In this document: positions 27,285 to 30,290 of the stretch, one piece after another
Layout of the letters: each line of letters starts with the position of its first letter
How positions within the stretch are numbered: position 1 is the first letter of the stretch
Assembly (NCBI GenBank): GCA_016125225.1
Contig: WGME01000003.1
Location: 372,001-436,000 of the forward strand
DNA from: a bacterium
GTDB taxonomy: Bacteria > Planctomycetota > Planctomycetia > Planctomycetales > Planctomycetaceae
Direction: 5' to 3'
Length of the DNA: 64,000 nt
The notes under the pieces: model-generated
Told to the model about the DNA's origin: nothing
Seen by the model: the letters and a program-made list of their open reading frames with translations, nothing else
The model's database searches: none
Translations under genes and position numbers: made by a program

Positions 27285-28415
27285 TTAGTCATGAAACTTG
27301 AACGGTTCCGGGGCGATCTGGTCGACCGGCCGCATTCCAATGTTGACCAGAAGACCGACCGCGATGCAAGTCGAGAGCAGGCTCGACCCGCCATAACTCA
27401 TCAATGGCAGCGTGATTCCCGCGATGGGCATCAGGCCGACGGTCATGCCGGTGTTGATGATCGCCTGCGTCGCCAGCAGGGCCACGATGCCGACGGCCAG
27501 CAGCCGCCCGAACGGGTCGCGGGTTGCCACCGCCACCTGTAACCCCCGGGCAAACAGCCACGCATACAGCAGCAGAGTACAAGAGACACCGAGAAAGCCC
27601 CAGCGTTCGCCGACCCAGCAGAAGACGAAGTCCGTCTGCCCCGCTGGTAAGTGGTACGCATCGGGATCATCGAGCGGCTGGTCGCCGAGTTCGCTCCCCC
27701 AGCCGCCGCCGAGCGACATCACCAGTTTCGCCTGATGCTGATGATACCCATCCCCCTGCGGAGCCGGTCCGCCATCGATCTGGCTGAACAGCGACGTAAT
27801 CCGCGACCGCTGTTCCGGGTTCATGCCCGCCCACATCACGGGCAGCGAAACGATCCCCAGGCAGACAATCAGCACCAGATGCCGCAGCCGTGCGCCCGCC
27901 GCGAACAGCATGGCAAAAAGCACCGGCAGAAAGAGCATCGCCGTCCCCAGGTCGGGCTCTTTCAGAATCAAGGCGACGGGGATCAACGTGACCACAAACG
28001 GAATGACGAGCCCCGACAACCGGCGATAGTTTTCACGGACCGAAAGATAGTCGGCGAGCGCCAGAATGAACGCCAGCTTCGCGAGTTCCGAGGGTTGCAG
28101 ATCGAAGAAACCAAGCGGAATCCAACTGCGGGCCCCGTTCCGCATCGGCATCCAGAAGACCACGATCAACAACGGCAGCACCGCGGCGAAGGCGGCGTAA
28201 CTGTAAGGGCGTAACCGACGGTAGGGGATCAGGGTCGACGCGACAAACAACGGCCCGCCGATAAGCACCCACGTCATCTGCCGGGGAAACAGGTCCATCC
28301 CATCCGCGAGCTGGTCGGCCCGCTCAATACCCGACAGCCCGACCAGCAGCAACCCCAACGTGGCTGCCACGATCGACCATGGAATCGGTGCTGTAAGACG
28401 CATCGCCGCCGACAT
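27285..28415 (-). CDS. rodA: rod shape-determining peptidoglycan polymerase RodA (FtsW/RodA/SpoVE family)
   Basis: 376 residues and about ten membrane helices. SEDS family hallmarks are visible: FPRQMTWVLIG near the start, LGFFDLQPSELAKLAFILALA, LILKEPDLGTAML with the functional Asp of the SEDS active site, and INTGMTVGLMPIAGITLPLMSYGGSS near the C-terminus. SEDS proteins polymerise lipid II glycan strands with a partner class B PBP. The presence of RodA fits the current view that planctomycetes retain peptidoglycan, although many lack FtsZ. No mreBCD or PBP2 gene adjoins it. It starts at the ATG at 28415. Confidence 0.93.
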   Translation of the reverse strand: MSAAMRLTAPIPWSIVAATLGLLLVGLSGIERADQLADGMDLFPRQMTWVLIGGPLFVASTLIPYRRLRPYSYAAFAAVLPLLIVVFWMPMRNGARSWIPLGFFDLQPSELAKLAFILALADYLSVRENYRRLSGLVIPFVVTLIPVALILKEPDLGTAMLFLPVLFAMLFAAGARLRHLVLIVCLGIVSLPVMWAGMNPEQRSRITSLFSQIDGGPAPQGDGYHQHQAKLVMSLGGGWGSELGDQPLDDPDAYHLPAGQTDFVFCWVGERWGFLGVSCTLLLYAWLFARGLQVAVATRDPFGRLLAVGIVALLATQAIINTGMTVGLMPIAGITLPLMSYGGSSLLSTCIAVGLLVNIGMRPVDQIAPEPFKFHD

Positions 28416-28494
28416 ATTCCCCCCGCCTGACGGTGGGAGTTGTACGTTCCCGGCCGCGACCGGGGGAAGACCGACTTGGACGACGAAGTGGGCG

Positions 28495-28618
28495 CGGGTT
28501 GGCTGGGGTCAGATATCCTGACGCGGATCTTCAGCCGTGCTCGGTTCGCGGACAGGCCATCTGCTCTCAGACTCGTTATAGCAAGCCTGCTGGGGGCTCC
28601 CTTTAGTCGAACCCAGGC
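28495..28618. repeat. palindromic repeat element, copy A (degenerate)
   Basis: Closely matches 29204-29330 over about 120 bases. Shared blocks include ATCTTCAGCCGTGCT, GACAGGCCATCTGC, CAGACTCGT and CCTGCTGGGGGCT. Its left end (GGGTTGGCTGGGG) and right end (CGAACCCAGG) are degraded versions of the terminal inverted repeat of copy B. It fills the gap between the rodA start and the stop of the small gene at 28621. Confidence 0.8.
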
Positions 28619-28620
28619 AC

Positions 28621-29007
28621 TTATTGCTGACCTTTCAATAATGCTCCAAACTCCCGGCAAAAGCGATCGGCAAACTCGCCCTCTACAACAACCTCTCCCT
28701 CCATCGCGGCTGATGCCTTCCAGCCTCCTATGCGATAACGCACCTTGATGTATCCATGCGAGTCTCGCTGAAACCGAAGCCATCCAGATTCGGTGAAAAG
28801 AATCTCAAGCTGCTCCGTCACCAGGGACTCGAAATCGGCTAATCGCTGCATCGTCGCATCAGACGAATCAAGCATGAGCCCCCCATGCGATGCTGTGAAT
28901 ATTTGATGATGCGCTGATGCGACAGCTTCAACCCGACAAGCAGCATAACCATCCTCAAGCGGACTGGATTCGATACAGAGGAAATTGTCGTCTTGGCCGA
29001 TGCGCAT
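28621..29007 (-). CDS. hypothetical protein (128 aa)
   Basis: The ATG at 29007 begins MRIGQDDNFLCIESSP; a TTG at 29064 would add 19 residues. The chain reads as a small mixed alpha/beta protein with a beta-rich C-terminal half (FTESGWLRFQRDSHGYIKVR, then GEVVVEGEFADRF). It has no signal peptide, no membrane segment and no motif I can name. The alternating polar/hydrophobic pattern and codon use look like a real protein. It is bracketed by the two copies of the 127-bp repeat and resembles in style the orphan immunity-type genes further right, but I cannot assign a family. Confidence 0.6.
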   Translation of the reverse strand: MRIGQDDNFLCIESSPLEDGYAACRVEAVASAHHQIFTASHGGLMLDSSDATMQRLADFESLVTEQLEILFTESGWLRFQRDSHGYIKVRYRIGGWKASAAMEGEVVVEGEFADRFCREFGALLKGQQ

Positions 29008-29203
29008 AGAATTTGGGCGAACTAAGGGATTGAGAACTGCGTTTCTGCTTATCTCGGGAGGCAATAGAATATCTTTGCGTTCCAGAATTCTGCCGAGTCA
29101 GAGGTTCGGCAGTCAATCTTAAAGTGGCAATACCAATCGATGTTTCCATGTCTGAAATCACCACGCCTTCCCCAAAATTCCTTGAGCGTCGTAGAGATCA
29201 GCG

Positions 29204-29330
29204 GGGTGGCTGGGATCAGATTGGCTGACGAGCGATCTTCAGCCGTGCTAAGTTCGCCGACAGGCCATCTGCCCCCAGACTCGTGATGATATTCCTGCTG
29301 GGGGCTACCGTTGGTCGCCCCCAGCCACCC
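29204..29330. repeat. palindromic repeat element, copy B, with 11-bp terminal inverted repeats
   Basis: The element begins GGGTGGCTGGG and ends CCCAGCCACCC, an exact 11-bp inverted repeat. Inside are further stems: GCCCCCAG pairs with CTGGGGGC. It carries no coding sequence. It lies 8 bases past the stop of the small gene at 29339, just as copy A lies past the stop at 28621. It looks like a miniature inverted-repeat element or REP-like unit. Confidence 0.85.
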
Positions 29331-29338
29331 GTCATAGG

Positions 29339-29749
29339 TCAGCCACCTCCGCCTTGGTTGCGAACAAGGTCTGAGAATTCATATTCGATAGTTCTTATCT
29401 GGTCCAAGTTCAGCGCCTCCGCTTGAGAAAGCGCAGACTCAAAATTGCCCAGCAGACTGGAATTCACATGTCCCTCGCAGGCGCAGACCAGAGTGCATGC
29501 CACCGCCGCTTCAATTGTCATGCGATTGTCTCTCTGACTGATTTCCAAATATGCAGAATTGGCTGCATTGAAGGCGTCTCGCAGCAAACGCTCGTTCATT
29601 GGAGGCCCGAGTGAGGCTTCAAGTGTTTTTAGTGCCTTTGCCAAACGGCGGTCTCTCGTTAAATAAGAGACACGCCGGTAACATAGAATTCCGAATTGCC
29701 GAAACTGCAGAAGCAAAAAGGGACCGACTCGTTGTGGCACTCGTCTCAT
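29339..29749 (-). CDS. hypothetical protein (136 aa)
   Basis: Starts at the ATG at 29749 (MRRVPQRVGPFLLLQF) with a weak GAGA upstream. The sequence is largely helical: LAKALKTLEASLGPP, LLRDAFNAANSAYLEIS, MTIEAAVACTLVCACEGHVNSS and FESALSQAEALNLDQIRTIEY. It ends in a glycine run next to repeat copy B. No family is recognised. It might be a soluble partner or immunity-like protein given the neighbourhood, but nothing in the sequence proves that. Confidence 0.55.
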   Translation of the reverse strand: MRRVPQRVGPFLLLQFRQFGILCYRRVSYLTRDRRLAKALKTLEASLGPPMNERLLRDAFNAANSAYLEISQRDNRMTIEAAVACTLVCACEGHVNSSLLGNFESALSQAEALNLDQIRTIEYEFSDLVRNQGGGG

Positions 29750-29828
29750 TGCCGTATCTCAAACGGGTTCCAACTGGGTCGCATCCGTAGGATCGAAGCG
29801 TCCACTGTGCGATCAGCGGCGGTAGTTG

Positions 29829-30290
29829 CTACGCCTCATTAAAAGCCCGCTCGAGCGCGGCGATGTCGAGTTTGACCATCGTCATCATCGCCTTCATCAC
29901 GGCTTCGACCTTCTTGGAGTCCTCGTCACCGATGAGCTGCATGAAGCGTCGCGGAACGATCTGCCAGGTGAGGCCGAACGGATCTCTGATCCAGCCGCAC
30001 TGCATCGGTTGTGCCCCGGCCGTGATGAGCTTGTCCCAATACCGGTCGACTTCGGCCTGGTCTTCGCAGTCCACAAAGAGCGAGAAGCCTTCGGAGAACG
30101 TGAAGTACGGACCGCCGTTGTAGCCCATAAAGACTTGACCGCCGACGACGAACTCGGCCGAGGTGATCGGCCCGTCGCTGCCCGTGCGCGCGACGTTCCT
30201 GATCTCGGAGTCCGGAAAGGTGGCGGCGTAAAACTCCATGGCCACCTCGAGTTGATCATTGAACATCAGGAAGGGCGTGACCTTGCTCAT
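29829..30290 (-). CDS. VOC family protein (PhnB-like glyoxalase fold)
   Basis: 153 residues from the ATG at 30290 (MSKVTPFLMFNDQLEVAMEF); the frame stays open upstream without a sensible start. The two beta-alpha-beta-beta-beta modules of the vicinal oxygen chelate fold are visible: FYAATFPDSEIRNVAR and FVVGGQVFMGYNGGP in the first, SLFVDCEDQAEVDRYWDKL and GWIRDPFGLTWQIVP in the second. The last motif is characteristic of the PF06983 (3-demethylubiquinone methyltransferase-like/PhnB) group. Substrate unknown; such proteins are often standalone. It is followed by no partner gene on the same strand within 80 bases. Confidence 0.88.
   Translation of the reverse strand: MSKVTPFLMFNDQLEVAMEFYAATFPDSEIRNVARTGSDGPITSAEFVVGGQVFMGYNGGPYFTFSEGFSLFVDCEDQAEVDRYWDKLITAGAQPMQCGWIRDPFGLTWQIVPRRFMQLIGDEDSKKVEAVMKAMMTMVKLDIAALERAFNEA

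Follow-up and report, generated by a model that had tools for sequence, protein, structure and literature searches.

Two small orphan genes stand in succession in a planctomycete genome, each ending beside a copy of the same short palindromic element, and the question that this locus raises is what these elements are and whether repeats and genes belong together. The window, by which we mean the whole 64,000-nucleotide stretch that was analysed (positions 372,001 to 436,000 of contig WGME01000003.1, assembly GCA_016125225.1, family Planctomycetaceae), had been read in a preliminary description as holding two copies of a mobile element or of a repeat that travels with small genes. From the evidence below it is very probable that both elements, A and B, are REPINs, namely inverted pairs of REPs with a GTGG head and a short spacer between them, and most likely stranded relics of copying by a RAYT of the clade that is linked to the same palindrome in related genomes. 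The features concerned are as follows.

27285..28415, minus strand: gene of the FtsW/RodA/SpoVE family (Pfam PF01098, 289 bits), downstream of A and outside the element
28497..28622, no strand assigned: copy A, very probably a diverged REPIN, 81% identical to B
28588..28622, minus strand: standard right REP of A, its head decayed to GTGC (REP model 42.9 bits, training row)
28621..29064, minus strand: ORF1, 147 aa, outside the element, its stop codon abutting A
29204..29330, no strand assigned: copy B, very probably a complete REPIN of two inverted REPs with perfect 11-bp ends
29204..29278, plus strand: enlarged left REP of B, with a GGGTGG head, a CTGGG/CCCAG basal stem and a nested inner stem CAGAT/ATCTG in the fold of the arm alone
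29279..29295, no strand assigned: spacer between the two REPs of B
29296..29330, minus strand: standard right REP of B, a GGGTGG head followed by the hairpin CTGGGGGCGACC-AAC-GGTAGCCCCCAG (REP model 53.5 bits, training row)
29339..29749, minus strand: ORF2, 136 aa, outside the element, its stop codon 8 bp from B

Two related elements with defined ends

Copy B begins with GGGTGGCTGGG and ends with CCCAGCCACCC, an exact match that bears out the 127-bp element with 11-bp terminal inverted repeats originally described; of the 63,873 frames of 127 bases on the plus strand of the window, no other has such exact ends. Copy A is indeed a diverged relative (81% identity over 125 bases, E 3.9e-26), but its aligned limits are 28497 to 28620/28622 and not 28495 to 28618 as first given, and its ends are degenerate (GGTTGGCTGGG / CCCAGGCACTT). 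The likeness stops where the elements stop, the adjoining 40-base flanks matching at 12/40 and 9/40 positions; since these flanks differ, A and B are not parts of a duplicated segment, and segmental duplication of the region is ruled out. Folded as RNA, B does better than 200/200 shuffles (z -4.7), as it does when folded as DNA (200/200, z -5.6); the DNA fold of A is weaker (z -2.1), with 6/200 shuffles equally good. A search of positions 28000-30000 against Rfam gave 0 matches up to E 1. Read along the minus strand, ORF2 is followed in turn by B, ORF1, A and ftsW/rodA, and the placement of each copy within ten bases of a small-gene stop codon is as previously claimed, A abutting the stop and B lying 8 bp away.

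The REP palindrome in the genome and the family

Each end of these elements has the build of a REP. The GTGG head stands at both ends of B and is decayed in A (GTTGG and GTGC), and in our covariance model of the compact REP, for which 26 copies from several genomes were aligned (the window's own genome supplied the right REPs of A, B and C and the single REP F), the GTGG columns are conserved in at least 24 of the 26 aligned sequences. Next to the head lies an imperfect palindrome that forms a hairpin, as seen both in the folds of B and A and in covariation among genomes, where the compact hairpin scores 0.160 against 0.038 in shuffled alignments, with 0/500 shuffles reaching the observed value. 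This signal comes mainly from one pair, which is CG, GC or AU across genomes; two pairs have changed on both sides, a number that 44/500 shuffles reach. The left end of B has the same head and basal stem as its right end with an enlarged body, and the REP model recovers it at 29204-29280 (20.2 bits, E 0.014) with a 53-nt insert.

The window's own genome (6.35 Mb in 42 contigs, completeness 100, contamination 0.23) holds seven REPs at E 1 or better by the compact-REP model, four of them training rows and three independent (31.7 bits in L315, 30.1 in L316 and 26.0 in L317). They fall into four clear pairs (A, B, C and D), one probable decayed pair (E) and two singles, and those outside the window are as follows.

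L003, 1085-1213: copy C, a REP pair with a long arm
L316, 1501-1617: copy D, a REP pair with a long arm
L317, 1501-1626: copy E, a probable decayed pair (40.8 bits with the model R2, built without E)
L314 and L315: single REPs

A search of the genome for the consensus, as suggested in the preliminary description, thus yields further dispersed copies and seven recognisable REPs in all: the two copies first noticed are both real, but they are not the only ones. Nor are they, as a local regulatory structure had been expected to be, unique and conserved in place. The inverted REP doublet is seen as a unit in A, B, C and D, and one REP of each of these pairs is enlarged to about 75 nt; in E the single-sequence fold has no left arm. 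The model R2 was built from A to D, which score 110-138 bits by construction, and across 229 sources its best match outside the own genome reaches 53 bits. Most of the complete matches are 70-110 nt long, the longer ones being mostly two compact REPs with a long spacer.

In these 229 sources the sequence of the enlarged arm was met only in the window's genome, a match to the left end in L038 (genome G015) being probably due to chance. Enlargement as such is not a unique trait, its sequence alone being peculiar: L297 (G015, 1501-1662) and L153 (1772-1880) have enlarged arms of about 82 and about 60 nt that are unrelated to it, which argues that arm enlargement happened more than once. A conserved fold of the enlarged arm has no covariation support. 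The four-copy consensus fold differs from the nested fold and earns no covariation bonus (covariation term +0.31), and compensatory change, which we considered as a mark of such a fold, amounts to 1/14 pairs changed on both sides with 85.7% of cells able to pair, a result that 217/500 shuffles equal.

Beyond this genome, the exact REP pattern occurs in 23/150 family genomes, the own one included, against 0 for the reversed-pattern control in every genome listed. The covariance model, which is looser, has matches in 22/59 relatives at E 0.1 or better, of which the weaker may represent related REP types; within the same genus, no match was obtained in G001 and just two weak matches in G002. A named collection contains at least 120 stretches with the REP. 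The 120 stretches listed all come from records titled as Planctomycetota or one of their sub-groups, with Schlesneria, Aeoliella, Pirellulaceae and Phycisphaeraceae among them, and contain 184 REPs by regular expression. These form 56 neighbour pairs within 250 bp, several of which share a genome and are not independent: 39 have their heads outward, with a typical gap of 8-23 bp, 12 + 4 are in tandem and one has its heads inward. REPs are typically abundant in genomes, and the seven of the own genome compare with up to 67 exact copies in another genome of the family (G062).

A RAYT clade and the probable REPIN identity of A and B

In an uncultured Schlesneria, one contig (L161, identical with G146:C43 and L218) carries a transposase gene that lies between two REPs, the second being inverted relative to the first. 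Its product scores 93.6 bits against the NCBIfam cut-off of 80 for the REP-associated tyrosine transposase, lies below the Pfam cut-off for Y1_Tnp (19.8 against 23) and weakly matches the solved TnpAREP 4er8 (E 0.0011). Upstream of this intact gene, in the region 903-1950 of L218/L161, is a truncated second RAYT copy whose break coincides exactly with a REP, a layout that recombination or an insertion there could have left.

With the Schlesneria protein as the query, matches were found in 22 of 25 genomes, which were mostly REP-positive; an initial Y1 protein profile (14/23 proteins, some of them antisense frames of minus-strand genes) served for finding candidates only. Flanks were compared at 30 loci with the exception of L251, a truncated gene beside that of the query. 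Nine RAYT loci are 53-100% identical to the query, and each of them has GTGGCTGGGG-type sites on both sides (one mismatch allowed); in 8/9 these are an inverted pair around the gene. At L231 the REP closest to the gene on the upstream side has the opposite orientation, with a + REP beyond it, and at L235 and L236 the flanking REPs are variants. At loci of 49% identity or less such a pair is present in 0/20, three of which (L240, L253 and L254) are cut by contig ends, so that one flank is largely or wholly missing. Each of the nine proteins passes the cut-off of NCBIfam NF047646, and FWQ, the tyrosine motif and the histidines of HuH are present in all of them. One RAYT clade and the palindrome sequence therefore appear, from these comparisons of sequence, to go together. 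In G062, the best transposase match is only 26% identical in spite of the 67 exact REPs, which indicates that RAYT and REP abundance are not always coupled. Within the window's genus, L236 (G002:C1) has a RAYT of the same clade (53%) with a variant REP, GTGGCCGGGGCTGGACGACC, on both sides.

This arrangement agrees with known systems, as far as these are covered in the parts of the published accounts used here. In the published cases, inverted REPs headed by GT(A/G)G stand on either side of the RAYT gene (PMC2817692; PMC3116915; PMC8266576; PMC6006769), and the clade shares with the RAYT/TnpAREP proteins the position of the gene between two inverted REPs and the HuH, WQ and Y..NP motifs (PMC2817692; PMC6006769); its tyrosine motif, YLHANP or YIHANP, is the consensus of no subclass row in the table of PMC6006769. 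The REPINs or BIMEs of Pseudomonas and enterobacteria are in turn described in passages of two of these papers (PMC3116915; PMC8266576) as palindromic REPs with a head of the same GT(A/G)G type, joined by a short spacer into an inverted doublet and tied to a RAYT; the extragenic dispersal of those elements may be a further point of agreement. Unlike them, the window's genome has few copies, a REP of about 75 nt, another REP sequence and no cognate RAYT that we could find.

It is from the REP architecture, the inverted pairing, the dispersal in genome and family and the flanking of a RAYT clade, taken together, that the REPIN identity of A and B follows at the strength given above. The earlier reading as a non-autonomous mobile element is upheld to this extent, given the repetition in the genome and the family, the defined ends and the palindromes that flank one RAYT clade in relatives; its other half, travel with small genes, does not stand (see below). 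REPINs are non-autonomous: a RAYT, which is an HuH tyrosine transposase, is believed to act on them in trans and to copy them in the form of folded single strands. RAYTs of the GTGGCTGGGG clade would cut at the GTGG hairpin and, by analogy, one of this clade would have moved the ancestors of A and B, which would themselves be past copies; the anatomy of A and B is what suggests their mobility.

Against the REPIN reading stand the low copy number in the own genome (seven), the failure to find a cognate RAYT there and the near lack of the REP in G001 and G002. The own genome has four Y1 transposase matches, none of them with a flanking GTGGCTGGGG pair. Two of these are RAYT-like, with 40-41% identity to the query and scores above the RAYT cut-off, and both (L245, i.e., G000:C36, and L257, i.e., G000:C37) lie between inverted copies of a different REP, GTGCCACTGGC-NNN-GCCAGTG, a pattern that recurs around a 40% relative in L258 (G060:C13). 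The window has no copy of this other REP; in L315 one copy lies some 45 bp away from the single REP. In the 42-contig assembly we found no RAYT of the GTGGCTGGGG clade, and with only RAYTs of the other REP present, the REPINs of this genome look orphaned. We infer that the cognate RAYT was lost, although it could also never have been present or could be hidden by a gap in the assembly.

Rival readings and other carriers

The perfect 11-bp ends of B and a length typical of MITEs could suggest that A and B are a classical MITE, i.e., the deleted remnant of an insertion sequence with a DDE transposase and 11-bp terminal inverted repeats. We consider this very improbable. Target-site duplications, which the preliminary description had proposed to look for, are lacking: none of the five paired copies (A, B, C, D and E) has a direct repeat at its ends, as is expected for REPINs and not for a classical MITE. 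Moreover, each end is a REP hairpin of a kind that is also found singly and beside RAYT genes. A further point in favour comes from two other genera, where genuine MITE-like elements, bounded by outer inverted repeats and a 2-bp duplication, enclose the same REPIN; around A and B those outer repeats are absent.

These MITE-like elements are found in G017 (isolate OFTM22; L041, L042, L043 and L109) and G067 (isolate SI072_bin183; L202, L224 and L127). They are 130-133 bp long and have a REPIN as their core; their outer inverted repeats resemble GAGGCTGTTTCAAAAC, and all of the 7/7 inspected copies are bordered by a 2-bp direct repeat. In G062 (isolate SJ810; L098, L158 and L183), REPINs are found in a different, palindromic element of about 181 bp with ends like TTAGTGGTCCATTTCA; a 7-bp direct repeat is present in one of the three copies (L183), and none is obvious in the other two. 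One might speculate, though we hold it to be rather doubtful, that planctomycete REPINs outlive their RAYT and change carrier, persisting as relics with an arm of about 75 nt in the present genome and as cores of DDE-like miniature elements in at least two other genera. If true, two transposition chemistries of unrelated kind would have served to spread a single palindrome.

A reading with similarly poor prospects is that the host now keeps A and B as RNA hairpins, either terminators or stabilisers of mRNA ends. Both copies touch stop codons, and B folds strongly. By crude ORF calls, which include other, overlapping ORFs, the distance to the stop of an adjacent ORF is at most 30 bp for C, for E and for both single REPs; D is not near a stop by the same calls. 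In other genomes, intergenic REP clusters lean mildly toward stops (45/66, vs 508/958 random intergenic positions), but without an excess within 30 bp of them (14/45 vs 185/508), and 39/105 clusters lie inside called ORFs, which may reflect the crude calling. The want of covariation support for the enlarged arm and of an Rfam match for positions 28000-30000 also speaks against such a role. An RNA-hairpin role and a REPIN origin are nonetheless compatible and not mutually exclusive, and stranded REPINs may act passively as intergenic hairpins.

Least credible is that a small gene and a repeat travel together as a unit, which was claimed to occur here twice in a row on the grounds that two neighbouring small orphan ORFs each end beside a copy: ORF1 and ORF2 have no mutual similarity, the relative of ORF2 has no REP within its 3.4-kb locus, and the other copies in the own genome adjoin other ORFs. 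On the first two of these observations a gene-plus-repeat cassette is rejected. Neither ORF has a convincing family match; among 170 family genomes ORF1 is present in one, the window's own, and ORF2 in two, the other copy being 58% identical and located in G117. At its locus (L320, G117:C21, 16-207) about 1.3 kb separates this relative from a short ORF that may be a fragment of an IS3-type integrase. The FtsW/RodA neighbour is found in 17 relatives, and in the longer stretches available from eight of them (two measuring 1.4 and 1.6 kb) eight other genes of the window are unmatched at E 1e-3; this neighbourhood is thus not common to the relatives, and no informative empty site is to be had there.

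REPs of Planctomycetes are already in print, and the REPIN family is little described in the phylum, as far as the portions of the literature used here extend. GTAG-tagged REPs have been reported from Planctomycetes and R. baltica, with which the present ones share tagged palindromes, an association with tyrosine transposases and the phylum, and in the Verrucomicrobium O. terrae the tag is mutated to GTGG in most GTAG-20 elements (PMC3733652, in part). The GTGGCTGGGG-type REP sequence does not occur in the main-text passages of that paper that were covered, nor among the matches listed for the open-licence full-text literature.

For the window itself, a puzzling gene-plus-repeat unit gives way to an ordinary explanation, and the interest shifts to the enlarged arm, to the REPINs embedded in MITE-like elements of other genera and to the cognate RAYT that was not found. 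The locus adds a REP/RAYT lineage of the Planctomycetota in which a transposase clade and a palindrome sequence appear to be matched, and with it a genome that naturally retains the palindromes though its only RAYTs belong to another REP type. The specificity of RAYTs for their REPs, and the fate of REPINs after the loss of a RAYT, thereby become testable outside the Proteobacteria.
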